64,000 bases of DNA from Aspergillus flavus (taxonomy: Eukaryota > Ascomycota > Eurotiomycetes > Eurotiales > Aspergillaceae), in NCBI RefSeq assembly GCF_009017415.1, contig NC_092406.1, forward strand, positions 1,860,001 to 1,924,000, read 5' to 3'. The position numbers and the translations under genes are program-made. The notes under the pieces were generated by a model. The model was not told where the DNA came from, searched no databases, and saw only the letters and a list, made by a program, of their open reading frames with translations. Position 1 is the stretch's first letter. Every line of letters begins with the position of its first letter. This document shows positions 33,436 to 58,960 of this stretch, piece after piece.

Positions 33436-33725
33436 AGCATTAAACTTATGGGGGTGATACTATTAGACTGTTAGACTTTATAGCGGCGGGAAGGATGGAG
33501 ACCCCGCAAATCAGGGTTAGTAGCCCTAACGACGTACATACGAATAGAAATATAGAACCAGATTCTAGTCCCAAAGCTCGGCATTTAAAATCAAGGTGGT
33601 ACTATAGCCCTACAACCAGATCAAGTATAGCGCTAGTTCATACCCCTCTGTGCTAAGGTCATTCATATCTCACTCAACGTCAACTCCCACTTACCTCCCT
33701 TGCCCACTCTAATTATCCCCTCAAC

Positions 33726-34433
33726 ATGGACACACAATCACCCTCCACCAGTTGTAATTTATTCCAAACCTCTCATTCCCGTTGGCTCGCAGTTACACAC
33801 CGCGCCCCATCATCCCACTCGTCCTTTCTATACGGCGTCAAATCCACAAAAATCTACTGCCGCCCTACCTGTGCCGCGCGCATTGCTCGCAGAGCCAATG
33901 TCGTGTTCTACGACACAGTAGACCAAGCGCGCCGTGATGGCTTCCGGCCGTGCAAGCGATGCAAACCAGATAATGCCAGCTTTCTCGGGGAGAAGGAGGA
34001 AGTTGTCGCAAGAGTCATCACGCTTTTGCGGGTGAACAAGAATGCGGTGGCGATGAAGCGCGGGTTGAAGGAGTTGGCTGGAGAGGTCGGTGTTTCGCAG
34101 AGTTATCTTTGTCGCGCGTTTAAGAAGACGATGGGGATTACGGTTGGGGCGTATATGATGGAGTTTGAGAGGAAGGATAGCCTGGGCGAGATGGAGGGTT
34201 TGATCCAATCTTCTGATATGGTGGATGTGGGGACGGGGCTCTTGACTCCGGCAGTAACAGCGAGGAACTCTCCGGTGCCCCTCAAGGGCCTGGAGGGAGG
34301 TTTGGTAGTAGAGGGTGGTGTGGGAAATGTTGAAGAGAATCTGGACTTGAACTTCAATATCGACGAATGGGTCTGGACGGATGACTTCTTCAATGACAGC
34401 ACCTACGGGTGGCCTATACAAAGTAATTCATAG
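33726..34433 (+). CDS. Ada-type zinc domain plus AraC-like HTH protein
   Basis: 235 aa. Residues about 18-82 match the N-terminal metal-binding domain of E. coli Ada, with the four cysteines at 45, 49, 76 and 79 (YCRPTC, PCKRCK); in Ada the first of these accepts the methyl group from DNA methylphosphotriesters. Residues about 88-150 form an AraC-type helix-turn-helix (LAGEVGVSQSYLCRAFKK). The rest is a low-complexity acidic tail (ENLDLNFNIDEWVWTDDFF) that could act as an activation region. The O6-methylguanine methyltransferase domain of bacterial Ada is absent. Likely a methylation-responsive repair protein or regulator of bacterial ancestry. Confidence 0.85.
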   Translation: MDTQSPSTSCNLFQTSHSRWLAVTHRAPSSHSSFLYGVKSTKIYCRPTCAARIARRANVVFYDTVDQARRDGFRPCKRCKPDNASFLGEKEEVVARVITLLRVNKNAVAMKRGLKELAGEVGVSQSYLCRAFKKTMGITVGAYMMEFERKDSLGEMEGLIQSSDMVDVGTGLLTPAVTARNSPVPLKGLEGGLVVEGGVGNVEENLDLNFNIDEWVWTDDFFNDSTYGWPIQSNS

Positions 34434-35475: not shown

Positions 35476-36688
35476 CATATTAAATGCGGCCAGGAACCAG
35501 AGAGCCTTGGATCTTAAAATAGTGTCAGGTTTTGTGTTAGGGTGAGCGCGGGTGATACAGGTAAGAATTCTGGAGACTGGGGTGAGAGACGTGAGAACTG
35601 GGTGAGAGCGGGTAAGAACGAAGTGAGAAGGGGTGAGAATATTCGCTGCGATGTATTACTCTTTACTCATATACAATAGTTGATAATGTAATGGAGCTAA
35701 GGTACAAGCTAGCATTTGTTGAAGAAAAGAAGACCAATTCAATCACTAGTCAGATACAGAGACTGATTCTTGAAGAAAATTCAAGCAATCAGGATTATTC
35801 GAGATTCAGTCTTCTCCTCGCGTGCTCTCTTCGAAGAAGAAGCGGTATAGAATTGGGGCTGAACCACGAAGATCATCAGACTCATCAGAAAGGGAAAGGT
35901 ATACAGTTTGAATGTACGATTTCTTCAGACCCTTTGTCGGGAGTCCTGTGACAACTATCTCCCCTTCTCTTCGAAGTCTGTCCTCAGACGTATTTATAGG
36001 AATTTCAAAGAATTTGTGTCGGAATAATCTTGCGGATGATACGGTCATATCACTGAGCAATAAATAGTACATATCAAGCAGGGATTGAAAAGAGGTAAAA
36101 AGAAGACCATGGAGAAATGGCTTAGTTATGATTACTCGGTTTAGGATGGATACGGCTGTATCAGGACTGGGTTTTCTTATCCACCATGCAAACATGCAAA
36201 GTTGATGAAAGATCTGGTATTATTCAGAAATTTCGGTAACTGGGGATATTGATTCGGGCGGAGACCTACGCAAGTCAGAAAGATAGCCGATGCTGGGTAT
36301 AATATTGGGAAGACTTTTAACCGATGTATACTTTTAAGTGAATGGATAATCTGATGGATTTGAAGTCTGACGAAATCTAATATACAGTATATTCATAAAG
36401 TACTAGTTGCATCTATAGTGAGTTGGTCAGTGCATACAATAGCAAATGACTCGGCCTGCGATATCTCAGTGTTAGTGTACACTACTGCAGTGTTATTTCT
36501 TGTGGTTACTCATGAATTTTTCGAGGACTAAGATCTCGAAAGTGGGAAGGGACTTTTTTAATCTGCTTTTTACGATTTGGAGTACACTATCCATAACATG
36601 CAAAGGTGTAGGCCACTATAGTGTATGAGGTAGGTTTCGCGGTGGTTTTTGCGATCAAAAGCAGCCATGTGGAGAAGCAGTAGCGCCT

Positions 36689-36700
36689 CGGATAGACCCG
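36689..36700. promoter_or_regulatory. CGGA-N4-YCCG site 1 (reductase promoter)
   Basis: CGGATAGACCCG, 265 bp upstream of the oxidoreductase ATG. Member of a six-site set; inferred binding site of the Zn2Cys6 regulator at 45.6-47.9 kb. Confidence 0.6.
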
Positions 36701-36740
36701 TGAATGGTCCATTCCATAAAGTGAACGGGATAGGGCTGCT

Positions 36741-36752
36741 CGGAAATCCCCG
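36741..36752. promoter_or_regulatory. CGGA-N4-YCCG site 2 (reductase promoter)
   Basis: CGGAAATCCCCG, 213 bp upstream of the oxidoreductase ATG and 41 bp from site 1. Confidence 0.6.
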
Positions 36753-36964
36753 TGTATGGCCAGATCTGCCCGAAACCAGCTCCACTCGGTGCGGCCTCTA
36801 CCTTCAGCCCGCAAGGGCTATCTCGATACATGATAGCATATATCCGTCGTAGTTTATTAGTATTTCTGTTTTAGGTGACTGGATTGATCTATGCTATCAT
36901 CTAGTGAAATTTGACATCAACCTCTTGGTAACTTATTCTACACACACGTCGCAAGCCACCAGCC

Positions 36965-37969
36965 ATGAGCATCTCTCTACCGCCGACTATGAAAGGCGTT
37001 CAGATTCGCCAACAGGGTGATCCGGCGAATATGGTCATTGAGACAGGGTTGCCCCTGCCTACCGTCAAAGACACCGATGTGCTTGTCAAACTCCATTATT
37101 CCGGCGTCAACTTTATCGATATCTATCAGCGCACCGGTGTCTATGGCGTACAGGTGCCATTCACTGCTGGCCGTGAAGGTGCCGGAACGATTGTTCAAGT
37201 TGGCGCCAAAGTAACCTCATCGTACGGGTTGAAAGTAGGGGACCGTGTCGCAGTCTTTACACAGGGCGCCTTTGCCGAATATGTGGCCGCCCCGGCGGAG
37301 GGTGTCATGAGACTACCTCCATCAGTGTCCACCAAGATAGGAGCCGCGGTCATGCTTCAGGGTCTCACTGCCTGGACTATGGTCCAGGAATCGCACAAAG
37401 TGAGCAGTGGCCAAATTATTCTTGTGCAAGCTGCAGCCGGTGGGACTGGAGGTCTCCTGGTCCAGATGTGCAAGTATCTTGGTGCTACCGTCATCGGGAC
37501 GGTCTCCAACGTGGAAAAGGCCAAAGTCGCCGAGGAAAACGGATGTGACCACACCATCCTGTACAAAACCACCAACGTGGAAGAGCAAGTTATGCGATTG
37601 ACTGGCAACAAGGGATGTCATGCCGTCTTCAGTGGCGTTGGCCAAAGTACTTTCAACGCGGACCTGGCCTGCACCCGGAGAAAGGGCACCCTAGTTTCAT
37701 ACGGAAATAGTAGCGGCGTGGTGTCCAATTTCTCCATTCTGCTTTTGAGCAAGAAGAATGTAAAGCTGGTCAGGCCAACCTTGGCAAACTACATTGCTGA
37801 GAGAGAGGAGTTTGTGGAGAGAAGCACGCAGCTGTTAAAGTTGCTCGAAGACGGGGCCATCCATATGCGGCTAGGAGGCGAATATGAGCTGGAGGATGTC
37901 CAGAAGGCGCAGGATGCGCTCAGTGGCCAGAAGACAATGGGCAAGTTACTCATCAATTTACAAGCTTGA
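36965..37969 (+). CDS. quinone oxidoreductase-like NADPH reductase (zeta-crystallin type)
   Basis: 334-aa zinc-independent medium-chain reductase. N-terminal GroES-like half (LHYSGVNFIDIYQRTGVYGV, GREGAGTIVQVG), then a Rossmann half with the NADPH loop VQAAAGGTGGLLVQM and GHAVFSGVG-like segment (CHAVFSGVGQSTF). No structural zinc cysteines are seen. Family members reduce quinones or enones/enoyl groups. It is head-to-head-independent but adjacent to the DUF1338 gene and carries two cluster-type operator sites. I infer it may reduce the unsaturated C6 acid (2-aminomuconate or 4-oxalocrotonate) to the 2-oxoadipate level. That role is context-based; general quinone reduction is the default alternative. 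Confidence 0.87.
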   Translation: MSISLPPTMKGVQIRQQGDPANMVIETGLPLPTVKDTDVLVKLHYSGVNFIDIYQRTGVYGVQVPFTAGREGAGTIVQVGAKVTSSYGLKVGDRVAVFTQGAFAEYVAAPAEGVMRLPPSVSTKIGAAVMLQGLTAWTMVQESHKVSSGQIILVQAAAGGTGGLLVQMCKYLGATVIGTVSNVEKAKVAEENGCDHTILYKTTNVEEQVMRLTGNKGCHAVFSGVGQSTFNADLACTRRKGTLVSYGNSSGVVSNFSILLLSKKNVKLVRPTLANYIAEREEFVERSTQLLKLLEDGAIHMRLGGEYELEDVQKAQDALSGQKTMGKLLINLQA

Positions 37970-38056
37970 AAAGGCTCTCTTAGGGTTAGACAATGCCTTT
38001 ATTCCAGAAGGTCAAGGCTTCTTTCAATAGAAGACGATGTAAGCCACAGTCAAATC

Positions 38057-38057
<1 letters not shown>

Positions 38058-38087
<30 letters not shown>

Positions 38088-38089
38088 CA
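38058..38089. repeat. poly-T tract
   Basis: A T-run of about 30 nt in the tail-to-tail gap between the reductase and the DUF1338 gene; likely length-variable. Confidence 0.9.
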
Positions 38090-38186
38090 GAGCCTTAGAT
38101 AGAGAGAATCCGAGCAACTTCCCAGTTTTTGTTTTATTTATTTCGCTTTATCTTATTATGCTTACGAACAAAAAATACGAGCAATT

Positions 38187-39611
38187 CTATAAACCTCCCA
38201 AAGCGTTTTCAACCCAAGCCTTACACTGGTCGATGCTCTCCGCCTGAATTCTCTGATACAGAAGCATCTCATCGGCAACTTCAACCCCGAGAGCCTTCTC
38301 AAAGTCACACTTACTACAGAGGTCACAGGAGTTCAAGTATATAGTTGCGCTATCCCCGTTCTTGTCCAAGTTACTCCGGAAGATGCCGGCCGCGCTTATG
38401 GGGAGAAAGTCTTCGTAGACTATGGGCTCGTAGCGGACTATGTCATCCTCAATCAATTGGCTCAAGTTGAATGGCTTCGGTTCAGGCTGCGCGTGAAGTT
38501 TGTTGGGATTGATGTAGTAGCGGAACCAGGCCAGTCCTAGCTCGCGCATTTCCATCCAAGAGTCTGGGAAACTCGCAAAGACGCGAGAGAACGCAGTCGT
38601 ATCACCGGCTGTGATAGAATCCCTGGTCGCTATTGCCAGAAGCGAATCATACAGTTGACGTCCTTTCACCGTTAGAGCCGCACCTCGCTGTTCAACCTCG
38701 CCGAAGCGTGCCTTGTGTCTGCCTGGGACAAATTGCTTAGTGTTTGCAGATTCTGTTGTTTCCACAGGAAAGCTGATTGGCTCCTCAATCGCTTTAAAAC
38801 TAGTCTGTCGAAGAAGAATAGGACATTTCCGTTTCGGAGGTCCCTCGATGTAATCTTTGACCGGTATGTTCCAGTCTCGCATACTCGATTGGACTGCGTC
38901 AATGTCCAGTACTCGTGGGGTCAAGTGGTTGATGTGCGGCGACTTGAAGGCAACAATGTCGGCCAAGATAGCGCTTTCGGATAACATCTCCTGGTATTCC
39001 ACATAAGATACCGCGGCTGAGTTGTGCCACTGGAAGCTGCTCGTTGCTTCATGGACAAACTCTTCGGCTTCCGCTTCGACAAGGCCCCCGTTGGATTCAT
39101 ATATGGCCAGCAGCGCCAACATCCTTTCGGAGAATATACTCCGGCGGGAAAGAATGCTGGTAACGCGTTGACGAACCTCATCGGACTTGATCAGCTCTGG
39201 GCGAAGCAAGGAGACAAACATGCGAAAAGCATTTTTCGAGAGCTCAGATAGTTCAGGTGCTCGGAAACAAGTCGAATGCACCGGGACATTAGCCGGTGCA
39301 AGGTCATAATACCCAGTAGGCAGCATATTCATGACCTGGAGGACGCGTCGGACCTGGTTCAGCTCGTCCGGCCTGCCGACACGTATGGCTCCGTGGCGCT
39401 CCCAATGGATTCTGTCGAGATTATCAGTAGTACTGAGCTTTTGGCGAAGATTTGGATCGCTCTCAAGTACTCTCTGGTTACTTTGTTGAACCAAACTAAG
39501 CAAATCGCCATATAAAGGGACCTCTTTGGCGTACATGGCTGACATGGCCACCGCAAAGGCTTGTCGGATGTTTGCTGATGGGACATGCTGGCGTAAAGTG
39601 TGGTTTTGCAT
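38187..39611 (-). CDS. 2-oxoadipate dioxygenase/decarboxylase, DUF1338 (HglS/YdcJ family)
   Basis: 474 aa from the ATG at 39611, close to bacterial HglS/YdcJ length. The bacterial enzyme converts 2-oxoadipate with O2 to D-2-hydroxyglutarate and CO2 using a non-haem metal. Seen: AMSAMYAKEVPLYGDLL, WERHGAIRVG (His73), PVHSTCF, SPHINHLTPRVLD (His226/His229) and ARFGEVEQRGAAL with the likely Glu ligand. This His/His/Glu spacing agrees with what I recall for the Pseudomonas enzyme. Near the C-terminus, PIVYEDFLPISAAGIF is conserved. A 45-codon frame starting at an ATG at 39888 could be joined by an intron, but the family needs no such extension. In this cluster it would take over 2-oxoadipate made from aminomuconate. 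Confidence 0.85.
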   Translation of the reverse strand: MQNHTLRQHVPSANIRQAFAVAMSAMYAKEVPLYGDLLSLVQQSNQRVLESDPNLRQKLSTTDNLDRIHWERHGAIRVGRPDELNQVRRVLQVMNMLPTGYYDLAPANVPVHSTCFRAPELSELSKNAFRMFVSLLRPELIKSDEVRQRVTSILSRRSIFSERMLALLAIYESNGGLVEAEAEEFVHEATSSFQWHNSAAVSYVEYQEMLSESAILADIVAFKSPHINHLTPRVLDIDAVQSSMRDWNIPVKDYIEGPPKRKCPILLRQTSFKAIEEPISFPVETTESANTKQFVPGRHKARFGEVEQRGAALTVKGRQLYDSLLAIATRDSITAGDTTAFSRVFASFPDSWMEMRELGLAWFRYYINPNKLHAQPEPKPFNLSQLIEDDIVRYEPIVYEDFLPISAAGIFRSNLDKNGDSATIYLNSCDLCSKCDFEKALGVEVADEMLLYQRIQAESIDQCKAWVENALGGL

Positions 39612-40248
39612 TGTGACGATGTCCGATTTCGGTTGCAGCGGGATTTGAAGACGATAGTCAGTGCCTGTCGAGGTTTCAGCGTTGGCACTTGCCAGAAGCT
39701 AGAGCTGGCTATTAGTTCGTTTACACAATGACACTATTAGTCAGTTGTGATTACCACCGACTCGCCTCGAATCCTTGTGGGCCCAAGAAGCGGAGGTTAA
39801 CTTCCACTTTACAACAACCGTGTCGGGACGCAACCCGTTTCAAGATATGCTCTAAGAATGCCGCCGGAGACAGTTCCGTCTCGGACATTTCCGTGTTAGC
39901 AATCATTACCAGACCATCGAGGGTGTACTAAATCCCTTGGTTTAGTAAGGCTTTGGGCTTTGGCGCGAAGTTGAAACCTGTGCACAGGTCTAGGACTCAT
40001 TGCTGTTGTAATGGCGTTGTGGAACCGCGTGCACTCCACTCTGGTAGATTGTCCACGTAAATCTGTCTCAGCAACTCTCCACAAGAGACAGTGAAGTCTT
40101 GGTTGTGCATGACCATGTGGATGGAGATATGATGAAAATTTACACGACTCATTGGAATCACCAGAATGAAGATTATCATGGGTATTTTTATGTTTTATGA
40201 TAGCTCTATTCGCAAAGATACCTCGTTTGCCCTCCTGCCTGATCACCC
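39612..40248. other. intergenic region with possible upstream exon
   Basis: Promoter of the DUF1338 gene and 3' flank of the RidA gene. Minus frame 39888 to about 39754 (starting MSETELSPAAFLEHILKRVA) is open for 45 codons. A GTAATC donor and an AG at about 39695 would join it in frame to the DUF1338 ORF. The operator-like site overlaps its ATG, which argues that this is promoter rather than coding sequence. Confidence 0.4.
39882..39893. promoter_or_regulatory. CGGA-N4-YCCG site 3 (DUF1338 promoter)
   Basis: CGGACATTTCCG, 271 bp upstream of the DUF1338 ATG at 39611. A second, wider-spaced CGG/CCG pair (CGGAGACAGTTCCG) lies just beside it. Confidence 0.55.
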
Positions 40249-40731
40249 TCACCCCGCGAGCCAGGCAACGCATTTCATCTCCACCAGGATTTCCTCCCGG
40301 GGCAATGCCCTCACTTCCACAGTTGTGCGTGCCGGCGCCGTCGTGCGGTCTGGCCAGACCTTGTTCCACTCTTCATTCATCCCAGCATAATCGTCTTTCA
40401 TGTTCGTAAGGAAAACGGTAACTTCGACCACATTCTGCATCCCAGCCCGGCCCTCCGTGGCGCCGTCTATGATCGCCGCTATGTTCTTCAAGACGGCCGC
40501 TGTCTGGAGACGAATGTCGAGTTTGAGAGAGGGGTTGCCGTTGGGGTCGTGGGCTCTTTCAGCTCCGACAAACGATCCATCGCCGCGGCGCGAAGAAGTT
40601 CCCGAAATATGGATATAAGAAGCTCCATGCCCAGCAGTAACCGTTCGGGCATGCGGATAATTAGCGAGGCCTTGGGCGTTGCCGGCTGGACGGAGATAGG
40701 GGACGCCATTGGGATGCGTGGTGCCTGACAT
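40249..40731 (-). CDS. RidA/YjgF-family deaminase, 2-aminomuconate deaminase candidate
   Basis: 160 aa, single exon. RidA (YER057c/UK114) fold: NYPHARTVTAGHGASYIHIS near the N-terminus, RLQTAAVLKNIAAIIDGA, VVEVTVFLTNMKDDYAGMN, and RTTVEVRALPREEILVEMKC with the conserved Arg that binds the carboxylate. In bacteria a RidA-family enzyme deaminates 2-aminomuconate to 4-oxalocrotonate. Position between the DUF1338 gene and the aldehyde dehydrogenase, plus an upstream operator site, supports that assignment over a general enamine deaminase. Confidence 0.85.
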   Translation of the reverse strand: MSGTTHPNGVPYLRPAGNAQGLANYPHARTVTAGHGASYIHISGTSSRRGDGSFVGAERAHDPNGNPSLKLDIRLQTAAVLKNIAAIIDGATEGRAGMQNVVEVTVFLTNMKDDYAGMNEEWNKVWPDRTTAPARTTVEVRALPREEILVEMKCVAWLAG

Positions 40732-40891
40732 GTTGACTGGGATCGGTAATATAAAACGAAGACGATCAGAATAATACCAGAAGAAATGATGTGATGTCAG
40801 ATGTGAAAACCCAAGGTGTTTACCACAGTATATAACGTTTTTATGAATCGGAGTGAATTCCCTTAGAACTACTACAGAAAAGGTGGGCCCT

Positions 40892-40903
40892 CGGATGCAC
40901 CCG
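40892..40903. promoter_or_regulatory. CGGA-N4-YCCG site 4 (RidA promoter)
   Basis: CGGATGCACCCG, 161 bp upstream of the RidA-like ATG, in the gap after the aldehyde dehydrogenase stop. Confidence 0.6.
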
Positions 40904-40925
40904 CCGGGTCTAACAATGGTGACTT

Positions 40926-42537
40926 CTACCAGGCGGAGGGGACATGAAGCGTCCGCAGGTTGGTAAAAACGTCTCGGCTATGTGCACCACCCTCTCGACC
41001 CACCCCAGATGCCTTGAGCCCTCCGAATGCCGTGCCGAGTTCTCTCACCAGCCAGCAGTTCACCCACACCAGTCCGGCGTCAATCCTTTCGCCAATACGA
41101 CGCATCCTGGCTATATCGTTTGTCATAACAATAGCTGCTAGTCCATTGACATTGTCGTTTGCCAGTGCGATAGCCTCATCTTCTGTGTCAAAAATTGTCA
41201 CGGTGACAACGGGTCCAAAGATTTCGTCCCGGATCACTGGACTGTTGGTGTCAATACCACTCAGAATAACGGGGGGGACCCAGTAGCCGTCCGGTTCCTC
41301 GGACGGAATGCCGCCGATGTGGAACTGTGCGGATTCCACTCGAGCCTGCAGGAGATAGGACCGGATCTTGAGATAATGTTGCAGAGAGGCGACAGGTCCC
41401 ATCGTCTCCCCTAATCGGTAGTTTTTCTCGACATAAGCAACAAATGCGGACATGAAATTGTCGTAGATGCGACGATGAACATAGATACGCGATCCGCAAA
41501 GACAGATCTGGCCGCTATTCTCAAAAGCTGCACGGGCTGCCACAGACACGGCGTTAGGTATATCGACGTCGTCAAAGACCAACACTGGGTTTTTGCCACC
41601 CAGCTCGAGCGATACGTGCTTCCCAATATCTGCAGCCGTGTCCCGTCTAATCTGGACTCCTGTGGCGGGGCCACCAGTAAATGATACGCCACGAACACGA
41701 GTCGAGCGTACCAAGGCAGAACCGACGCCAGGCCCATCACCAAAAACTATGTTCATCACCCCAGCAGGCAGTTCTGCTTTCTTGAAAACCTCGGCCAAAA
41801 CTTCAACCAATTAGTATTTTCACCATGGAACGGACGGAACGGTCACCAAAAACGTACGGAATGCGGTTATACTTGTCACTTCACTTGGCTTCGCAATTCC
41901 TACGCAGCCAAAAGCGAGGCAAGGTGCAATTTTCCAGGTCAAAAGATAGAGCGGCATGTTCCATGGAGTGATGAGTCCGAAAACGCCCACGGGAGATCGG
42001 TGTTCGTATGTCAAGACCGAAGGTGGTCCATCTACATAACGGGCGGCGCTTTCCTCGTGCAGGATGTATGTAGCAAAATAGCTGGATCACTAGTCAGCAA
42101 TGGAGTCCTTGGTCCAAGGAGGGTACTTACTTGAAGTTCTCAATAGCTCTCTCCACTTCCACTCGCGCGCGAGCAAGAGTCTTCCCTTGGTCAATGCTCT
42201 CCCAGACCGCGAAAAGCTCTTTTTCGTCGCTGATAATGCTGGCAATTCTTTGCAGCATCTGAGATCTTGCCTTTCGCGACGTCCGCGACCACGAAGGAAA
42301 CGCCTTCGTGGCTGTCTCGACAGCCACGTCCACGTCCGTAGAGTCGCTTAGAGGAACTTGTACCAAGACTTTGCCATCTCTAGGATTATACGAATTAACC
42401 CATTTATTGGACGTCGCGCAGGGTAGGAATTTGTTGGCCACGAAATTGCGGAGACGGATCGGGTCGCGCTGACTGGCCAAGAATTCATAGGCCTTTTGCT
42501 CAGTGTTGAGCTGCCATAGTGTGGTAAGAGTCTCCAT
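40926..42537 (-). CDS. aldehyde dehydrogenase, 2-aminomuconate semialdehyde dehydrogenase candidate
   Basis: NAD(P)-dependent aldehyde dehydrogenase superfamily, 501 aa. Three exons: 42537-42131, 42081-41858 and 41800-40926; phases match and the joins restore IENFNYFATYILHEE and ITAFLLAEVFKKAELPAGV. Seen: LITPWNMPLYLLTWKIAPC, coenzyme site VSFTGGPATGVQI, catalytic Glu in SLELGGKNPVLV, nucleophile Cys in ENSGQICLCGSRIYV, and EIFGPVVTV. The human/bacterial 2-aminomuconate semialdehyde dehydrogenases belong to this hydroxymuconic-semialdehyde-type clade (ALDH8-like). The substrate is inferred from the flanking ACMS decarboxylase and dioxygenase. No exact operator site was found in its own 390-bp upstream gap. 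Confidence 0.88.
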
Positions 42538-42929
42538 GGGTGCGGTATTTTATAGTTGAGTTGGATTGAAAGAGAAGCCTAATAATCCGTATTGGCATGA
42601 GACAAAGCGCCAATAAATATGACATACTCCAAGTATCTGGACCTCCTACGAAGGAGAGATGGTGCGGTTGGAGCTCCGATTGGCTTCACAGAGTAGACTG
42701 ACCCGCAGCCCTAAACCCGTGGTAGCGTTGACACAATGGGGTCTTTGAAGATACCTGGGAAGTAGCAGTTGTCAACTGAATTGAGTGTTGAATTAAGTCC
42801 AGAGAATAGTTCGGCGAAGCATTCGAAGGTCTTTCTCTATTATTCGCTGATCAACACCTGATACACTCTAAGATGAATGAGTAGTCTATGGCTTTTTGAA
42901 GTTGATCAAATTCAGGCTATGTATGCATT
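42538..42929. other. promoter region of aldehyde dehydrogenase
   Basis: About 390 bp. Contains a wider palindrome CGGTTGGAGCTCCG (8-bp spacing between the CGG and CCG triplets) at about 42664, but no 6-spaced site as in the other cluster promoters. Confidence 0.45.
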
Positions 42930-44262
42930 CTAGGCAGGTATCTTGTCTATGCCCAAGAAATCTAGTACATTTTTCGACATAATGCGCGCTCTACTCGTCG
43001 CGCACAAAAATTTCTGAATCTGCGAATCTGTGGATAGTAGCTCCCCAGGCTGCGGCATCTCCCCCAGCGGAAACGGATAGTCACTGCCCAAGACAATCCT
43101 TCCTACGCCGATTTTCCTGCAGATATACTCCACCAGGTCGGCGTCATGCATCAGGCTATCCAGCCAGATGTTAGACTGGTGCTGCTTAAAGAAGTCTGCT
43201 GGTGAGACGCCCTGCGCGCTATGTGCCACAAGGTCCGGCCGGCAGTTGTAGCCGTGTTGAATGCGACCCAGCAGTGGTAGGTAGCTTCCGCCGGCGTGCG
43301 CAAAGCAGAAACGTAGCCTTGGATGGGTGACTAACACGCCGGAAGAGAGAATTGCATGAATTGCGAGAGCAGTCTCACTTGGCCTAACAGAAGAAGGCAT
43401 CATTAGCTGTCTTTACTTTTGCTGGGAAAACGGACAGATTGAAGAGAATCACGTACATGCCTATCAACCATGCAGACCAATACGGCTTCCACCGGCTCGT
43501 CTTCTCCTTTTCCCACTCGTACCCTAAGGGGTGCACAAAAATAGGAAAATCTAGCTCCTCGCATGCGGTCCAGAATGGTTCGAACTCGGCGCTGTCCAGG
43601 CTCCGCCCGTTGATTTCAGCCCCGATCTCCACGCCATTTAAACACAGGTCCTTTTTTGCACGGTGCAGTTCCGCGATTGAGGCGTCGACATCTTGCAAAG
43701 GAACTGTTGCCAGTCCCATAAACCGCTGAGGATATTCCTGACATACGGAAGCGATATGATCGTTCAGATATCTGGCCATGGAGGCGGCCTGTTTCGCTGG
43801 CTTGTCATAAGAAAACAGAATTGGGACCGTGCTCAGGACTTGCACATCGATTCCAGTCGCGTCCATTTCTTTAATGCGTAACTCAGGGTCGTAGCAATTG
43901 GCTTCCACTGTTCTGAAGAACCGATCACCTACGTACATGTCGACTTTCTTAGGTGTTTTGGGGTTACTGATGCCGTTCGTCTGAGGTTTTTGGTCATTGT
44001 GTGGTCTCAGCGTGATCCATTCGTGGCTCTTATCGCTCGAAACATCCTCATCCAAAGGTGGGAAGCTTGGCAGTTCAGGTGGCATGATGTGGGTGTGGAC
44101 GTCGATGCGCATAGATGGCGACGCAGTTTGGCCATCGACACCACCAAGGTCAGAGTCATGACTCGAGGAGCCACAAAGGCAGCCACAAGAATTCGTCATT
44201 TGGGAATGTTGTGTTTGTTGAATATGAGCGTGGACTAATAGGACCTGCAAAGTAGATCTCAT
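42930..44262 (-). CDS. 2-amino-3-carboxymuconate-6-semialdehyde decarboxylase (ACMSD)
   Basis: Zinc amidohydrolase-superfamily decarboxylase that removes the carboxyl group from ACMS, diverting flux from quinolinate/NAD to complete oxidation. Two exons: 44262-43457 and 43383-42930; the junction completes Met in LIGMPSETALAIHAIL. Total 419 aa from the first ATG or 398 aa from the ATG at 44199. Metal motif HxH in RIDVHTHIMPPELP; later ATGIDVQVLSTVPILFSYD, FPIFVHPLGYEW, RFCFAHAGGSYLPLL and metal-ligand Asp in IVLGSDYPFPLGE. Fungal members usually begin near the HxH; the 50-residue Cys/Ser-rich leader here is unusual. Divergent from the dioxygenase gene across 316 bp. Confidence 0.92.
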
Positions 44263-44323
44263 GACTCTTCTTCCGGGCGTCTTTTTTTGGTTTTTTTTAT
44301 ATCATAGCTTATTCTTTGTCGCA

Positions 44324-44335
44324 CGGAGCGATCCG
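44324..44335. promoter_or_regulatory. CGGA-N4-YCCG site 5 (ACMSD/HAO divergent promoter)
   Basis: CGGAGCGATCCG: arms are exact reverse complements (CGGA / TCCG). 62 bp upstream of the ACMSD ATG. Confidence 0.65.
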
Positions 44336-44399
44336 AAGTAGGTGTACCCGGCCATTGTTGAGCCGGCGAGGTGGCCACAGCTGCAACGACTGGTAATAA

Positions 44400-44411
44400 C
44401 GGATGAATCCG
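44400..44411. promoter_or_regulatory. CGGA-N4-YCCG site 6 (ACMSD/HAO divergent promoter)
   Basis: CGGATGAATCCG: exact reverse-complement arms. 76 bp from site 5, and about 168 bp upstream of the dioxygenase ATG. Confidence 0.65.
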
Positions 44412-44578
44412 TCGAGTGTGGAGGCGTCTTCCGCACCGGCTACATCCATCTTGCAGTCGTATCATATTTGAAGGAAGTCTTCTGAGCATAACTTGACTAC
44501 CTTCGCCTTCCACTGATAGCGTCGCGCCCGCCCGACACGATAGGAAGCTCGTGGAGGTTTGAGTCAGGGACAAAAATT

Positions 44579-45336
44579 ATGAGTACAACTAACGGCCTCC
44601 CCATCCCGGGGCCCCTGCAGTTGACGGCTTGGCTGGAGAAGAACTCTGCGAGTCTGCAGCCACCCGTTAACAACAAATGCCTGTATTCTGGCGAAGACTT
44701 TATATTGATGGCAGTTGGTGGCCCAAACCAAAGAAAAGACTACCATAGTAAGTGACTTAGGGTTTTAGTCTATGCTGAGAAATAGGTCGTCTTACGAGTA
44801 TGAATGCCTACAGTCAACCAAACAGAGGTATGTAGGACTGAGAAACGAATGACGGGCATCATATATTGAATACGATGGATCACAGGAATGGTTCTACCAG
44901 ATAAAAGGCGACATGCTGCTCAAGATAGTAGAAAACGGTGATCAGTTCCGAGATGTCGTGATCAGAGAGGGAGAGATGTTTCTCTTGCCAGGTATGTTTG
45001 CTAGCTATTTATCTGGAATACATAACCGTTCCGTTCTGGTTTTTTTTGGATAAAGACAATATTTAACAAAGCACAGGCAACATTCCGCACTCTCCCCGTC
45101 GCCAAGGGGACACAATAGGCCTGGTGATGGAAAGGCAGCGACCTGTAGGAAGCATCGATCGTCTACGGTGGTACTGCGAGAATGAGAAGGAGCATGGTGA
45201 AACACCTGCCTTGATCCGTGAGGAGCAGTTCTTCTGTGAGGATATGGAAACGCAGCTCAAAGAGGTCATTGAGGATTGGATGAGGAACGAGAGCAGTCGC
45301 GAATGCAAGTTATGTGGCAGTATTGCCGCAGCGTGA
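44579..45336 (+). CDS. 3-hydroxyanthranilate 3,4-dioxygenase
   Basis: Fe(II) cupin ring-cleaving dioxygenase converting 3-hydroxyanthranilate to ACMS. Four exons: 44579-44747, 44814-44827 (14 nt), 44886-44991 and 45077-45336; phases give 182 aa. Metal ligands are visible in family context: His56 in KDYHINQTE, Glu62 at the exon 2/3 junction ([13 protein letters not shown]) and His101 in GNIPHSPRR. The active-site segment GLVMERQRP is present. The C-terminal CKLCGS keeps only one CxxC, like many eukaryotic forms, so the second iron site of bacterial enzymes is probably absent. Start is the first ATG after the divergent promoter. Confidence 0.94.
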
Positions 45337-45567
45337 GACACTACGTTGTGAATACCATTCAACATGGAAGGCCGTGAATATCGCATTTGGCAAGATATTT
45401 AGCCCAGGGTACTCACTCGATATCAATGAATAAGTGTAAAAGAATAATGAATCAACAACTCCCTTCCCATATATAACTGTTGGATGTGAAACAACAGAAC
45501 CAAAATATACCGATACAAAAAAAAAAAAACCTTGATTCGTGGCCGAACTTTATGCCATTATCTGGCA

Positions 45568-47864
45568 TTATTGATTCTCAATTAGATCAAAATCTGTCCA
45601 TAAAAAAGCCATAAAATCATTGCCGGCAGATTCGGCTGACAGTGATCCTGTTCCAGGGCTTAGAATAGGGAGTTGAGAGTTTATCCTAGTGATGGGAAGT
45701 GGATTGTCTTCATCCGCTGCTACACTGGTTCTACCCTGAACCATCGAGGGGCGTTCCATCATCCCCATGTCTACATGAACATCATCTCCTTTCCTGAGCC
45801 TCTTGGCCGCTGGTTCTCCTGTTCCCTCGTGCTGAATTCTGGTCGAAGGCAAGCTGCGTTGGACCGTGGACTCAAAAAGACTGTTATGGCTATGGTTCTG
45901 CTGGCGCAAATGACATCGTGGTAGATCTGTCCCTGATAATGGTAACAAGAGATGTGCATCGAGGTCGGGTAGTCTATCGAGGCACAATGTGATGTTTGAT
46001 GGGCCTTCCCCAAAACGACCCAACGCTTCACTGAGCTTGTCGCGTCTTTCAAACTCGGCCTTTATGGACTTTAGCTCCTCCTGAACCAACGTCTGATACG
46101 TTTCAATCTCTGGCCATTGTATGCTTAGATTGCGAAGCATTCCAACGGCGGCCTCCAAGTCGTTCAGCGCTTTCGCGGTAAAAATAGGGTTCCAAGCCAG
46201 CCGTATACAGTGTAACAAAACCTTGGCGCTGGCGAAGAGCGCACGACCATGTTGAATTAGGAAATGACTTCCTGGTACGGTCGCTATTAAACGAGGCGTA
46301 AGCTTAATGCAGCCGGACGCGGCCTCGGCACATCGAAGGAACATCGCAGGCTCCGCCACTGTGTACTTCTCTAGGAAAACTCGATGGAGGAGGATCAAGC
46401 TAGCGTAATATGAGGATAGGGCAACGGTCTGCAGCGCAATGGCTTCGAAGTCCCGGGGCGACTCTTTTATCCACGGCAGTACCTTTTCTGTGAAATAATT
46501 CCCCAGTTCTGCATCGTGCCGACGAACGTCAGCTTGGATCTTATCCTCCAAATTCGGTGTGGAGTTGCGGGCAGCCTTGCGTATGTAGCGGACGGTTTTG
46601 TAGATCCGACCCATGATGATATGAAAGTCAACAATAACGGAGAACCAAAAGTCCGTTTCTGAATCAGTATCATGCGTTGGGGCTTTGAACTTATCCTCCA
46701 ATCCATATTCTGTGTCATCTATTGCCAGAGGTTTCAGAAGAGCAGTGGATAGAGAGCGATCAAGGACATACAGACACCACCACAGTCCACGCTGCATGTG
46801 TGGATCTTGACTAGGTATAGGATCGTCACTCAGATCCAAGCCCTGATACAGGCGAATGGCGTGGCCTGTAGTCACCCACGCTTCGTACGCTTTGCCTGTC
46901 TCGGCGAGATATAGACTAAGAAGCCCGTGACCAATGATAGAGTTCAGACCGAGTTTTTCTTTTGATTGGAAAAGTAGGATTTCCCTCGTAGCGTTCGAGT
47001 AGAAAAGATGACCAAGATTCGCTAGATCGTACGCTCGCAGACAAGGGTCTTCGGAGGTCGGGTGTGTAGATTTGAGGCCGGAAACCGCCACGGCGAGGAG
47101 CGCATTCATCACGAAGGACAGCTGACTGTTATCATCGTCATGACCCAAACCACTCCTCCGTAGCTGCTCTCTGAAGTCTTTTTCGGGAATAATGGGGAAG
47201 ATGGGATGTATCACTCGGAAGTAATGGCCAACGAGGAGCGTGCGCACTTCGTCAGGAATGGGTTTGAGGTGAGTCAATGAGCGCGCCGATTCCCTGCCGT
47301 CACCTAATTGCCCATCACCTTTGGACACAAACGTTCCGGAGTTGAGCAACCCCTCTTGGTGTTCTGCGGGGGATTCTCGTGCCGGGGCGAGGGAGCCTGT
47401 ATGAAGCGACGCCATGTTTGGGGCGGAGCTCAGAGTCTCCAGGGGAAGGTCTCCTTGGTTCTGGTCTGGCTTTTCTGAATTGGCCATGGTCAACTTCACG
47501 AGGTCAGTTGTGTCCACATTTGCCGGAAGAACTGCTGGATCGTCTGCAGGTTGGTGAACAGGCTCGGATGTCCGCGGCGGACTCGGCGCTCGCAATTGCG
47601 CCTCCATAGAGAGGATTCTGCTCTCGAGGCTCATGATATATCTGTGCCAGACAGTCAGTCCTTTCTTCAGGCCAAGCACTAAAATTTGAGGAGCAACGGG
47701 GCTACGCACTTGGGATCGAAAAGCCTGGCGTTGCCACTAAGATCAGTATAGATGCATTGCGCATTGTTGCGACAGCAGCTTTGGCACGGCTGTTCCCCAT
47801 CGCACTTGATTTTCCTCTTGCGGCATGCCTGGCACGCACGCCAAACTCGCTGACGTTCATACAT
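45568..47864 (-). CDS. Zn2Cys6 transcription factor, putative cluster regulator
   Basis: 742 aa; exons 47864-47710 and 47641-45568, joined as FDPKYIMSLESRILSMEAQL. Binuclear zinc cluster at residues 11-37 (Cys 11, 14, 21, 27, 30, 37: CQACRKRKIKCDGEQPCQSC), then a short coiled coil with LESRILSMEAQL for dimerisation. Fungal_trans middle homology region at about 150-450 (HYFRVIHPIFPIIPEKDF, GHGLLSLYLAETGKAYEAW, GLWWCLYVLDRSLS). Convergent with the dioxygenase gene. Zn2Cys6 dimers bind paired CGG triplets, so the CGG-N6-CCG sites upstream of the catabolic genes are the natural target; that link is inferred. Confidence 0.9.
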
Positions 47865-48752
47865 GGTTGGTCTATGTCGGGATAATGGAGCAGCTAGACT
47901 GATCCAAGAGCGGGTGACACTTAAAAGGTGGGGATGAACTACGTTGGTGGACTAACTCCAAGGAGCGGAAGCTAGTCCTTCGCTAGTGATAGCGATACAA
48001 AGTAATACCCCGTACGTAGTAGAGGTTGCCGCCCCAGGGGGGGTTTCATTGGTGCCTTGGTTCTCGGCCACACTTCTTATCTAATCTCCATTCTGCTTTT
48101 CTTGGATCACGTCGGCGAAATGGCATAGTACCTATAGTTAAACTCCTAGGCTGCGGCACAATTTTGGTTTTGGTCTTTATATGTTCCATAAAACCAGATC
48201 AATTCGGTTTGCGCTCAGTAAAAACTGTAATACAGTTCTTTTGCGATTAGCTGTATTAATATTAGGCTGTGGCATAACCGCGGGTATCCCCTGCCCGTCC
48301 CATCTCCGCTCCGCGTTTGTGGGTGAACATTGAATGGATAATGGCGGATTTGGTATTTTTGGTAATTTGCTATAATAAATTCGGTAATTTTGGAACAAAC
48401 GAAATTACAGGCCTATAATAATGCAAAAAATTGACCCACAACTGGGCATACTGGGTATCCTTGTAACTGCAATGTTGCAAACACACCTTATCAGATATAT
48501 GTAGCTTGGGAATACCGTAGCAAACGCTCCGGTATTATACTCTCTTTTGGCCGAATGATAAACACACAACCCCAGGCAACCTGCTTTACCTGTCACATCC
48601 AATAAATTTATTCATCACCAACACTCGATTTAGCCTAGATTCTACTTTTTTAAAAGTACCTCACATTCGTGGATCAGTCCGTTGTCTGAAAAGAATTCAT
48701 ACCATCCGGCCTCCTTGGCATATATAGACAATATAAGACCCGTGCAGCACTC
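47865..48752. other. intergenic region, possible hAT-type MITE remnant
   Basis: About 890 bp with no supported gene. At 48260-48330 the CCGCGGGTATCCCCTGCCCG stretch and neighbouring C-rich motifs resemble terminal regions of fungal hAT elements, but I could not find a matching second end. The rest is AT-rich. Confidence 0.3.
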
Positions 48753-50360
48753 CTACACACTGGATCCAGAGTTGTCCCTGCAGTCAAAGACCTGGGCGAT
48801 ATCTCCACTGGAAAACGCGTCCTTGATCGAAATAGAGACGGCATACCTAGGTGAATCCATTTTTTTTTAGCTCACATGTAACCTGAGAACAGGCAAGGGA
48901 CACTCACGTTCCACCAACTGTCATGAAAAGCCCAAGAATCACAATTCCCGCATGTAGTCCATACTTTACCTTCTGAATCCTTGGCCCAGATTTATAGTCT
49001 TTATGATCATGAAACCAGAGAAGTGCCGGAAAAATCAGGCTGAAGGGCGCGAAGCACAGTGCGCCGGCCAAAGCAAGTAAATAATCCAAGATCGGGACTG
49101 CCTCTGCCACAACGAAAGCTACAGCACCCAGTATAAAGTTGATACCGAGCCAGGTGAGCCAGTGAACCCAGGTATTTGCCTGCAAATGTTTCGAATCACG
49201 GAGCAACCGGACAAAGGCGTACTTGGCCGCTACATGCTGGTAGATGCCAACACCAATCACAAGCCCTGGCATTGCGATACCATAAGATGTCTGCTTGAAG
49301 AGCTTTCCAGCACTGCCGAAGACAGGAACAGAAAGCCAAACACCACACCAGCGGTATATAACCAGACTAAACGACAAATACATAGCTCCAACTATGAAAC
49401 CGGCCGAGATACAAGCCTTGCGATAATCCTGGGGCCGGCGCATCTCCGAGATAACAGGTAAAAACATGGACGAACCAGCCGTGCTGATGAAGATGTTTTC
49501 TACATTCAGCATACCCACAACAAAGGATGGGTACGCGATGGGTGTCCAGCCGAGATCAAAGTCACCGGTTGGTGGGGCTGCTGGAGGTCGGTCTTGCTGC
49601 GTCACGGCGACCGTGAAGATAAATACTGCAAGAAGGAAGGTGAAGAAGCCAATCCAGGTCAGCCAGCCCAGACGAGAGAACATGCGGATGGACGAGCATA
49701 TGGTAACCAAAATTGTGGATACAAGAGCAAAAGTCACTGTGCATGTCCCATGACTCGACAAAGCGTTGAATCCGGTTGCTGTTGTAACGATTCCACTTGC
49801 GGAAATTAGGATCTGAGCAATTATGACCTGGATTCCGACGAGTTCGCGGCCAATACGTCCCCAGGTGAAGGCCATCATATCTGGCAGCACTTCAGAAAGT
49901 ATTAATCCTGATAGATTTGAAGAATCCTGGGATATAGACTTACTGTGACATTGGGGATATTTATTGCGAAAATCGCCGAGGATAATAGCAGAATCTATAC
50001 GTTGTATGACCAGTAAATATAAAACCTTAATGGCGACTTCGTTTGCAACGACTTCAACCTACATGTATTCAACGTAGTAAATCCGATGATACATAACGAT
50101 CCGCCAACCGAGCCAAGTGCCGCTAAAGCCCCTGGAGTGGCGAGGATGCTCATCGCAAAGCTGATTTTAATGAAGACAACAGTCGCTCGCTGCCAGCTGA
50201 CAGTCCTGAACTCGACGCCGCCCTGGCTCAGTTCGAAGATCTCGCGTGACTCCCCGCGCTCTGTTTCCTCAGTTGAGGCTTCGCCTAACTGAGACCCATC
50301 GAGCGCGATATTACCGGTCTCGGGGCATTTTTTGTTCTCTTGACTAAGAGAAATAGTCAT
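48753..50360 (-). CDS. AAAP-family amino acid transporter
   Basis: Amino acid/auxin permease family membrane protein, 474 aa. Four exons: 50360-50063, 49994-49944 (51 nt), 49889-48908 and 48846-48753. Joins restore [35 protein letters not shown] and [20 protein letters not shown]. About 11 hydrophobic helices, with [20 protein letters not shown] in TM1-2, [16 protein letters not shown], and [20 protein letters not shown]. Fungal members import neutral or aromatic amino acids. Lying next to the regulator, it could bring in tryptophan, kynurenine or anthranilates, but no operator-type site was found in its promoter, so cluster membership is uncertain. Confidence 0.88.
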
Positions 50361-51482: not shown

Positions 51483-52473
51483 ATGGCTTCCAACCCCCCT
51501 GCCGCCTGCTGCGCTACTGGTTTCAAGCATGAGGGCACTCCTGTTGGCGAGGTGAAGAACATAGATGGTGGTGAGTAAAGAAAACTAACAACTGTCGCTG
51601 AAAGTCATCCAATTCCTCGAGAGAAAAATCCACTGGCAGATGCGCTGCACAATGTACCTCCCGAGCTAACATCTAACACACCCTTCTCTTCTCTAGTCAA
51701 CACCTACATCACCTACCCCAAAGACAACAAGACCCCCGAGACGGCCATCGTCTTCTTGACCGACATCTTCGGCATCTTCCACAACTCTCAACTCCTCGCT
51801 GACGAGTTCGCCAAGGCTGGATACTTGACTGTCATCCCGGATCTGTTCCAGGGCGACCAGGTCAACGTCGCTGATATGGAGTCTGGCAAGGCTGATCTAC
51901 CCTCCTGGCTGCCCAAGCACCAGCCCGCCAACGTCGACCCCGTCGTTGAGGCGTCAGTTAGGTACGTCCGCGAGACTTTGGGTGCGAAGAGCGTTGGTGC
52001 TGTTGGTTACTGCTTTGGTGCTAAGGTAAGTTTCTACATGACCTCTGATACAGGCTTATCTCACTGGGTATGAATATGGGTTTCTAATGGGCCATTCTCA
52101 GTACGTTACCCGCCTTCTGATGACCAACAAAGTCGATGTTGGCTTCGCCGCCCACCCCTCCTTCATCACCCACGAGGAATTAGGCGCTATCCAAGGCCCC
52201 TTGTCCATTGCTGCTGCCGGTATGTTCTTTTACCTTCAGCCCAAAAAGCCATAGCACTAAGAGTATCCAGAAATCGACTCCATCTTCACCACCCAACTCC
52301 GTCATGAATCCGAGAACACCCTCATTAAGGCCGGTCACCCCTGGCAAATCAACCTGTTCAGCGGCGTGGCCCACGGCTTTGCAATTCGCGGCGATATGAA
52401 CGTCAGGATTCAGAGGTGGGCTAAGGAGCAGGCTTTTGTCCAGGCCGTTTCTTGGTTCAATCAGTACTTGTAA
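51483..52473 (+). CDS. dienelactone hydrolase family protein
   Basis: Alpha/beta hydrolase of the DLH family, 245 aa. Four exons: 51483-51570, 51697-52025, 52102-52219 and 52271-52473, phases consistent. Seen: N-terminal CCATGFKHEGTPVGEV typical of fungal AIM2-like DLH proteins, LTDIFGIFHNSQLLADEFA, nucleophile Cys in VGAVGYCFGAK and catalytic His in VAHGFAIRGD. The bacterial enzyme hydrolyses dienelactones in chloro-aromatic degradation; most fungal homologues have no known substrate. Its closeness to an aromatic catabolic cluster is suggestive only. Confidence 0.9.
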
Positions 52474-57337: not shown

Positions 57338-58960
57338 CTAAAGTCCATTGTGGGTGAGTGAGTTGACTCTCGTCGCCGCCGTTAGATCCACCATCACCAA
57401 CGACGCACCTTTTATAATTTCCATAACCGCTATATCTACCGCAACCTCCTTTCCGATCCAATTACAGAGCTCGACCTCTAGAAGAGAGTCGACACAGAAG
57501 GTATGCAGAGGTGCGTAGGCATCCACCTCCGCATCCTCGGGCATCAGGTGGTATGAATGGACCATCTTGCCAATGACAGCTCGTCTCACAATTTCACGTG
57601 CTTCTCGTAGAGAGGTTGCCTCCTGGAAGAGGTTCTTAAACCTATCTAATTATGGCATTCGCCTTGCAAAACGGAGTCACCGGAGATATTGTCAAGCTCG
57701 AGTCGGCTAAAGAGGGGCGTTTCAACCAGCGTCTTGCGGTCGTCACCACTTCCAGAAATTCTGCATACCAGCTGAGCCGTGTCGGGGCCCAGGATCTGTT
57801 TACTAGTTTTGCAATAATCGTTCAGAATACCATATAATTGCTCTCGTGTGACGGGTACTAGTGACCCGTATGCAGGCACCTTATCAAGAAGCCCAGCAGT
57901 CTCTACCAGTATACCGTCGTCAATCATAGTTCCAATATCCAAGGACACAGCTTTCTGACCGTGAGCGATTCGATAGCGTGCGAGGCCATCCATGTGCGAA
58001 TTCCACACAGCGTAATTAGATTGACCGGTGAGTCCAATAATATTACTAGCAGATGATAGCATGACAAAGAAGTCCAAGTCCTTGGGAAGATTCATTTCCG
58101 GGTTTCATGACCCAAGGGCCTTGTATTCAACAGCCATTCGCCAATCCTCATAGGTCATGTCGCTGATCATTGAATCCCGTAGGACCATGGATCCCTGCAC
58201 GCAACCTTTTACCGGGGGCATTGTCTGCGATATCTTCTGCATAACTTGCCTCACGAATTCCGCGTCTATCACATCGCATGGTGGAGTATGGACATACAAC
58301 CCCTGCGCAGAGAGTTCAACAATGAGTTCGAATATAGCAATGGCCTTGGCTCCCGATCGACCCAGAAGAACCAAATTGCGGGCCCCTCTGTCAACCATCC
58401 ATCATGCTATAGTCCGACCAGCCCACCAAGGCGTCCAGCAATAACGTAGGTCGCGTCAGGTTTGAGCTTGAACAAGACCATGATCTCTAAGATATTAGGG
58501 GCCTTGACCTTTGGAGTCAGATCAATCACCGTTTTACCCATGGCAGTTCTATCCTGCATTGAGTTGAGAATCCTCTCCACAGAACTTGAATCGTCGACCT
58601 TGTAAGGGGACTGACTGAACGCGAAGCTGACTCTCAGCTATAAGCTTCAGGACTGTTTCTATAGCTCCCTTGGCTGTTTCTTGTCTATCACGCATCCACA
58701 TTGCGCTAACAAAGTGGGTAAAAGAGGCTTGTCGGCCTGTCTGTGTTAGCGAAAAGCTGCCGTTCGACAGGCTGTCAATATGAATTAGTTGTCCCGTAAG
58801 ATGCCACACAGTCCCAGGAAGCTTGTAGAATCTCTTCACCCAATATATTTATTACCACATTAAGTCCGTCGCCCTTAGTTATCTTCATCACGCTGCGGGT
58901 AAGCCTGGTATCGCTGCTGTAAAAGATATGATCATTGTTTCTTTTCCCGTGTGCTCACAG
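57338..58960 (-). pseudogene. highly reducing polyketide synthase relic (ER-KR-ACP end)
   Basis: Only the C-terminal end of an iterative type I PKS remains. In order on the minus strand: ER end (GDGLNVVINILGEEILQASW), ETAKGAIETVLKLIAESQLR, KR Rossmann start TYVIAGRLGGL, then MVDRGARNLVLLGRSGAKAI in another frame, KR core DFFVMLSSASNIIGLTGQSN, and ACP with FCVDSLLEVELCNW (normally GVDSL). Lesions: TGA where Trp is expected before NPEMNLPKDLDFF (near 58106); frame changes near 58410 and 57650; further stops in the ER part, which fades near 58960. KS, AT and DH domains are absent. Confidence 0.87.

Follow-up and report, generated by a model that had tools for sequence, protein, structure and literature searches.

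Among the Ascomycota, some Aspergillus, Fusarium, Metarhizium and Penicillium species carry a '3-hydroxyanthranilate catabolic cluster', named as such by Martins et al. (2021; PMC7842363, here and below in the accessible part of its text). It comprises genes for a 3-hydroxyanthranilate dioxygenase (3HAO), an ACMS decarboxylase (ACMSD) and a 2-aminomuconate 6-semialdehyde dehydrogenase (AMSDH). A RidA-type gene, putatively for an aminomuconate deaminase, recurs beside them; genes for an amino acid transporter, a ligase, a short-chain dehydrogenase/reductase and a Baeyer-Villiger monooxygenase are listed as syntenic. Some aspergilli have two such clusters, and the A. terreus version is up-regulated on salicylate. 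The fate of 2-aminomuconate was left undecided in that work: it may proceed via 2-oxoadipate and glutaryl-CoA, a route that could not be verified from RNA-seq, or via 4-hydroxy-2-oxopentanoate. Here we describe a locus in a 64,000-nucleotide stretch of the Aspergillus flavus genome (contig NC_092406.1; hereafter the window), in which genes of this kind stand next to two further ones. These encode a quinone-oxidoreductase-type reductase (QOR) of the medium-chain dehydrogenase/reductase (MDR) family and a hydroxyglutarate synthase (HglS), that is, a 2-oxoadipate dioxygenase/decarboxylase. HglS has been described from the lysine catabolism of bacteria and plants; it also occurs widely among the Ascomycota and Basidiomycota, and its role there, possibly again in lysine degradation, was posed as a question (PMC7286885, likewise in its accessible part).

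The window covers positions 1860001-1924000 of the first of eight contigs (G000:C1) of a 37.7 Mb genome. Splicing yields eight complete genes, which occupy positions 36965-50360 and follow one another as QOR(+), HglS(-), RidA(-), ALDH(-), ACMSD(-), 3HAO(+), Zn2Cys6(-) and amino acid transporter(-); their reading frames are intact and their introns follow the GT..AG rule, with intron borders placed by eye, without transcript evidence. The QOR (36965-37969, 334 aa), HglS (38187-39611, 474 aa) and RidA (40249-40731, 160 aa) genes are intronless. The ALDH gene (40926-42537, 501 aa) has introns at 42082-42130 and 41801-41857, the ACMSD gene (42930-44199, 398 aa) has one, and the 3HAO gene (44579-45336, 182 aa) has three, at 44748-44813, 44828-44885 and 44992-45076; the last two genes are transcribed away from each other out of a shared 379 bp promoter. 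The 3HAO, ACMSD and AMSDH genes are thus contiguous and accompanied by a RidA-family gene, which are the core features of the cluster of Martins et al. (PMC7842363). An earlier note, made from the letters of this DNA, had named the same genes and read them as a 3-hydroxyanthranilate meta-cleavage cluster ending in a reductase and a 2-oxoadipate dioxygenase. All of them are present in our models and Pfam assignments, and the reading is supported by their families and solved relatives. Its further suggestion, that no such compact fungal cluster had been described in full, was too strong, as the core shared with the window (3HAO, ACMSD, AMSDH, RidA and transporter) had already been published (PMC7842363); QOR and HglS, which that text does not name, constitute the new part.

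We propose that the locus encodes a dedicated fungal route that starts from 3-hydroxyanthranilate (3HAA), a product of tryptophan and kynurenine or of related aromatics, and releases ammonia on the way to 2-hydroxyglutarate; the adjacent Zn2Cys6 factor would co-regulate its genes. We assign this reading a probability of roughly two in three (0.68). In this route, 3HAO would open the ring of 3HAA with O2 to give 2-amino-3-carboxymuconate 6-semialdehyde (ACMS), which ACMSD would decarboxylate before it closes to quinolinate. The ALDH would convert the resulting semialdehyde to 2-aminomuconate, and RidA would hydrolyze the enamine to 2-oxo-3-hexenedioate (4-oxalocrotonate) and ammonia. QOR would reduce the C=C bond of this enone with NADPH to 2-oxoadipate, which HglS, with Fe2+ and O2, would decarboxylate and hydroxylate to 2-hydroxyglutarate; its conversion to 2-oxoglutarate is assumed to be catalyzed by a dehydrogenase encoded outside the cluster. 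For the families of 3HAO, ACMSD, AMSDH, aminomuconate deaminase and HglS, the individual reactions are established, and 2-oxo-3-hexenedioate, being an enone, belongs to the substrate type taken by MDR reductases. The glutarate branch of the mammalian kynurenine pathway likewise involves 3HAO, ACMSD, AMSDH and a reduction to 2-oxoadipate; there, 2-oxoadipate is converted to glutaryl-CoA, whereas HglS would give 2-hydroxyglutarate here. The family reactions are covered in part by the two papers cited above (PMC7842363; PMC7286885). The gene content, the family identities, the conserved catalytic residues of HglS, the conserved linkage and a shared promoter motif are observed; from these we infer the activities of the six proteins, the sequence in which the final three of them act, the induction of the genes, the target sites of the regulator and, above all, the substrate of QOR.

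For five of the six enzymes, all but QOR, the best solved homolog is the enzyme that the pathway needs. The top solved relative of 3HAO is a 3-hydroxyanthranilate 3,4-dioxygenase (1zvf, 2.4e-48), presumably that of yeast. In an NCBIfam scan, to which all six enzymes were submitted, 3HAO scored above the cut-off of TIGR03037 (182 vs 145.95) and below that of PRK13264 (199.3 vs 220). The 13 top solved relatives of ACMSD are all ACMSDs (4ofc/2wm1, best 1.4e-71), and the scan listed no NCBIfam family for it; the seven top solved relatives of ALDH are all AMSDHs (7bzv/4u3w, best 1.1e-100), and no cut-off was reached among the 25 of 41 NCBIfam families shown. RidA, the proposed 2-aminomuconate deaminase, has a 2-aminomuconate deaminase as its top solved relative (6izh, 1.8e-18), followed by a Rid protein at 6.5e-12. 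It is 37-40% identical to the RidA proteins of six bacterial 3HAO loci and has a motif, SGTSSRR, in common with 6izh and with the RidA proteins of five such loci, in one of them with a single letter changed. Three NCBIfam Rid families matched it, all under their cut-offs and none of them defined for aminomuconate deaminase function. The A. parasiticus annotation has RidA and HglS fused in a single protein of 642 aa (P0122), which is probably a merged gene model, as the two are separate frames 637 bp apart in the window; the merged annotation implies that the genes are neighbors there, too.

HglS matches the Pfam family HGLS with an E-value of 3e-143, aligns over residues 12-464 with the hydroxyglutarate synthase 6w1g, its top solved relative (6.3e-124), and exceeds the NCBIfam equivalog cut-off of NF049974 (572.5 vs 550 bits), while staying below that of the mycobacterial-type model NF050083 (363.8 vs 600). 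Its residues H73/H229/E305 and R77 are the counterparts of the metal triad H70/H226/E294 and of the substrate arginine Arg74 named for the family (PMC7286885); at the position of V402 it has an isoleucine, and S403 is retained. Family, metal triad and substrate arginine are the same as in the described enzymes, whose known role lies in the lysine catabolism of bacteria and plants (PMC7286885), whereas the fungal protein would act in an aromatic pathway. Its closest named homolog is the A. parasiticus protein P0122 (96%), and the ACMSD homolog of that species (P0241) is 92% identical. In a tree of 121 sequences, the named fungal HglS proteins do not form a supported common clade (support 0.165 for 39 of the 121), and the 16 sequences closest to HglS of the window cluster with a support of 0.91. 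The genome also contains a second HglS gene (C1:3987216-3988412), whose product is 41.6% identical to the first; its closest listed relatives, Serratia among them, are about 51% identical to it, and HglS of the window is 48-51% identical to bacterial HglS. As each copy is nearer to bacterial proteins than to the other copy, the two may be of separate origin, with weak support in the tree.

QOR is the least secure link of the chain, as its substrate, 2-oxo-3-hexenedioate or alternatively 2-aminomuconate, is suggested by the position of its gene. The best surviving alternative, which we nevertheless regard as unlikely, accepts the upper pathway and HglS as proposed and gives QOR a protective role: it would re-reduce quinones or quinone-imines formed from 3HAA, and another enzyme would reduce the C=C bond. 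3HAA is readily oxidized to quinone-imines. Furthermore, QOR has the quinone oxidoreductase 3qwa (yeast Zta1) at the top of its solved relatives, with a 2-haloacrylate reductase (1wly) in seventh place, and its nearest NCBIfam model is an NADPH:quinone reductase, albeit under the cut-off (217 vs 348 bits). On the other side, the gap in the chain corresponds to exactly one NADPH-type C=C reduction, QOR is the sole reductase in the cluster, and its linkage to HglS recurs in other fungi, as described below. QOR is also only 40-41% identical to the Zta1-like protein encoded elsewhere in the genome (C3:3274864), from which it is distinct by sequence. In a tree of 117 sequences, built after exclusion of four of 120 homologs shorter than 300 aa and with the own Zta1-like protein added as the root, the 15 QORs linked to HglS or ACMSD genes fall within one clade of 84 sequences (support 0.99), apart from that protein. 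A looser filter for clade-separating sites, applied after exclusion of six basal sequences, returned 21 sites, which serve as a lead only.

Conservation of the gene neighborhood was assessed with lists of the best 120 homologs (of approximately 8000 each) for QOR, HglS and ACMSD. Homologs were taken to share a contig if the longest contig given for each had the same length, a measure that for whole chromosomes indicates co-location rather than adjacency. By this measure, two or more of the three genes coincide on 20 contigs, four of which have the full set, compared with a mean of 0.35 coincidences when the lengths were shifted by 1-200 bases; 15 of the 120 QOR entries, 14 of those for HglS and 15 of those for ACMSD are involved. 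Some of the contigs are short: all three genes occur on one of 11,271 bp, and QOR and HglS also occur together on contigs of 19,244 and 19,557 bp. Close locus tags further imply that two of the genes are near-adjacent in Penicillium mononematosum (QOR 009419, ACMSD 009423), Neoarthrinium moseri (QOR 002280, ACMSD 002282), Penicillium psychrofluorescens (HglS 6659, ACMSD 6662) and Pestalotiopsis fici (HglS 02119, ACMSD 02126). The linked species span the Eurotiomycetes and the Sordariomycetes. This recurrence on shared contigs indicates that the arrangement seen in the window exceeds chance.

A second line of evidence for a common function comes from the promoters, where the motif CGG-N6-CCG is found upstream of five of the six enzyme genes, 130-276 bp before their start codons. 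Two sites precede QOR (36689..36700 and 36741..36752, centered 271 and 219 bp before the ATG), and one each precedes HglS (39882..39893, 276 bp) and RidA (40892..40903, 166 bp); two more, 44324..44335 and 44400..44411, the latter of the form CGGAT-NN-ATCCG, lie in the divergent ACMSD/3HAO promoter. The first of them begins 276 bp ahead of the QOR coding sequence, at the position where the region delimited by the earlier note starts. In total, the 4,273 bp of promoter DNA contain 6 sites against 0.45 expected, a count that none of 3000 first-order Markov resamples reached at N6 and that one of 3000 reached when any spacing from 0 to 20 was allowed; the promoter intervals were chosen with the first sites already known, which favors enrichment. 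The entire interval 36300-44578 contains 8 sites, including 2 in coding sequence, where 0.78 would be expected from 95.7 kb of other DNA of this genome, or approximately 1.4 from the rate in four 10 kb stretches (L026-L029) alone. These 40 kb contain 7 sites, and the 20 kb at a second cluster on C4 (L027 and L028) contain 3, so that the motif is not peculiar to the locus described here. Some Zn2Cys6 factors (PPR1/UaY type) are known to use the CGG-N6-CCG spacing, and the six promoter sites may be targets of the Zn2Cys6 protein encoded beside them (45568-47864, 742 aa, intron 47642-47709), which we propose as the cluster regulator from its position and the common motif. Together, linkage and motif lend only indirect support to the earlier note's view that the genes form one inducible pathway.

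The same evidence bears on the possibility that only the upper four genes constitute the known 3HAA cluster, and that HglS and QOR are a separate neighboring pair, acting for example on lysine-derived 2-oxoadipate. This would agree with the established role of HglS in the lysine catabolism of bacteria and plants, with the question of whether fungal HglS serves the same purpose (PMC7286885) and with the fact that Martins et al. left both genes out of their cluster (PMC7842363). We nevertheless consider it improbable, because HglS directly neighbors RidA on the same strand, other fungi also have QOR and HglS linked to ACMSD, and both groups of genes share a promoter motif. Moreover, 2-oxoadipate is presumably what the upper enzymes would themselves deliver after a single reduction. 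Still more remote is a reversal of the last two steps, in which HglS would act directly on 2-oxo-3-hexenedioate, which like 2-oxoadipate has a 2-oxo acid group and a carboxylate at the far end, to give an unsaturated hydroxy acid for later reduction by QOR or another enzyme; it is disfavored by the residues fitting 2-oxoadipate that HglS retains and by the enone probably being the simpler substrate for QOR.

The genome offers an internal comparison, as a second 3HAO-ACMSD-ALDH group is found at C4:4414794-4419556, its ACMSD being 56-58% identical. It includes a transporter-like gene, in two pieces and 32% identical to the transporter of the window, and, as read by eye, ligase-like and monooxygenase-like genes in its vicinity, by which it resembles the A. 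terreus cluster of Martins et al. (PMC7842363). No tblastn match to RidA, QOR or HglS was found in the 30 kb C4:4401000-4430999. A third, single-frame 3HAO gene lies on C3 and probably serves NAD synthesis. The genome was also searched for enzymes of the bacterial lower route. Acylating acetaldehyde dehydrogenase gave no match, and 4-hydroxy-2-oxovalerate aldolase gave six weak ones, of which the best scored 46 bits where 286 are required; of 14 control genomes, 2 matched for the former and all 14, equally weakly, for the latter, none over the cut-off, so that there was no positive control for either. Pfam identified no bacterial lower-route gene among nine scanned proteins of the window, and no genome search was made for the decarboxylase or the hydratase. 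The aldolase and dehydrogenase results speak against a bacterial lower route in this fungus.

Several observations weigh against the proposed route, in addition to the quinone reductase that is the nearest solved relative of QOR. QOR-type reductases accept many substrates, and in the 117-sequence tree no clade-separating site passed a strict filter. The cluster on C4 implies that the lower genes are not required beside every 3HAA cluster. In the promoters of the ALDH, regulator and transporter genes, there is no exact CGG-N6-CCG. As to linkage, sharing a contig is at times mere co-location, and 105, 106 and 105 of the 120 entries for QOR, HglS and ACMSD, respectively, have no shared contig; many of these are on short contigs, from bacteria (HglS) or cluster representatives, and are evidence of neither separation nor linkage. 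In Xylogone, HglS and ACMSD share a contig of 3954366 bp, from which the listed QOR is separated, being located on one of 796255 bp.

Bacterial 3HAA meta-cleavage clusters of the nba type, found for example on Rhodococcus, Cupriavidus, Polaromonas and Streptomyces plasmids, provide a further comparison. A first sample, obtained by a search with the fungal ACMSD alignment, comprised 80 loci kept of 98 relatives, mostly Bacteroidota, and was poorly suited to the purpose: 3HAO was detected in 4 of the loci, ALDH in 4, RidA in 2, and QOR and HglS in none (tblastn, E 1e-8). A second, non-random sample consisted of eight plasmid loci with 3HAO, hand-picked for taxonomic spread from 25 listed of 77 records. 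In six of the eight, relatives of 3HAO, RidA, ALDH and ACMSD occur together, as in the window, but HglS occurs in none of the eight. Instead, genes for 4-oxalocrotonate decarboxylase or for members of the fumarylacetoacetate hydrolase family are present in four loci (L110, L111, L114 and L115), and L111, L114 and L115 have acetaldehyde dehydrogenase and 4-hydroxy-2-oxovalerate aldolase as well; L112, L113 and L116 have none of these lower-route genes within 9 kb, and L117 is unannotated. Weak relatives of QOR are present in two loci, an NADP-dependent oxidoreductase in Polaromonas (L114, 26%) and a threonine dehydrogenase in Mycetohabitans (L116, 23%). The fungal cluster thus resembles the bacterial ones in its upper route and departs from them in its ending. 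The Mycetohabitans locus belongs to the megaplasmid of M. endofungorum, a bacterium isolated from Rhizopus; ALDH, RidA, 3HAO and ACMSD are contiguous on it, and no lower-pathway genes are annotated in the fetched stretch.

In the cluster text of Martins et al., with Figure 5 represented by its legend, neither QOR nor HglS is named; the terms DUF1338, hydroxyglutarate, glyoxalase and enoyl do not occur in the text at hand, and its passages with 'quinone' or 'oxidoreductase' are unrelated to the cluster (PMC7842363). Within the literature that we searched, which lacked most subscription journals and preprints, we found no work placing HglS or QOR in a fungal 3HAA cluster, no gene named for the reduction to 2-oxoadipate, and no occurrence of the phrase 'aminomuconate reductase'. 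The broader proposition is an even bet: that ascomycetes possess a self-contained, CoA-free route from 3HAA to 2-hydroxyglutarate, composed of a bacterial-type upper part with deamination by RidA, a mammalian-type reduction and a finish by HglS, in which QOR reduces a six-carbon unsaturated acid and fungal HglS has a context beyond lysine. If it is true, it would close the lower end that Martins et al. left undecided (PMC7842363) and give fungal HglS a role, the question left by the work on that enzyme (PMC7286885). It would also put forward a specific gene as the candidate for reducing the unsaturated acid to 2-oxoadipate and, should QOR indeed be this reductase, a starting point in the search for the animal counterpart; each proposed step is assayable with purified enzyme.

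The Pfam scan covered the eight cluster proteins and a neighboring dienelactone hydrolase; the transporter was represented by the longest of its open frames. It assigned QOR to ADH_zinc_N/ADH_N, RidA to Ribonuc_L-PSP, ALDH to Aldedh, ACMSD to Amidohydro_2, 3HAO to 3-HAO, the putative regulator to Zn_clus and Fungal_trans, and the transporter (48753-50360, minus strand, 474 aa, 3 introns), which may serve substrate uptake, to Aa_trans. The dienelactone hydrolase gene (51483-52473) was excluded as a cluster member: the 1.1 kb separating it from the transporter gene contain no exact CGG-N6-CCG, and we see no role for it in the chemistry.

Beyond the cluster, the window contains an open frame at 33657-34430 (+) that combines an Ada metal-binding domain with an AraC-type helix-turn-helix, the regulator half of a bacterial-style protein in a fungus; no methyltransferase family matched it in Pfam. 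An open frame of 1568 aa at 11916-16619 (-) resembles NOD-like receptors, with PNP_UDP, an NPHP3-type N-terminal domain and many ankyrin repeats, and with NACHT under the cut-off; a second ankyrin frame lies at 24642-25955. Finally, a single frame at 60284-62749 (+) encodes AMP-binding C-terminal, carrier and NAD_binding_4 (reductase) domains, and together with a KR-domain piece at 57649-58104 (-) it looks like part of a secondary-metabolism locus.

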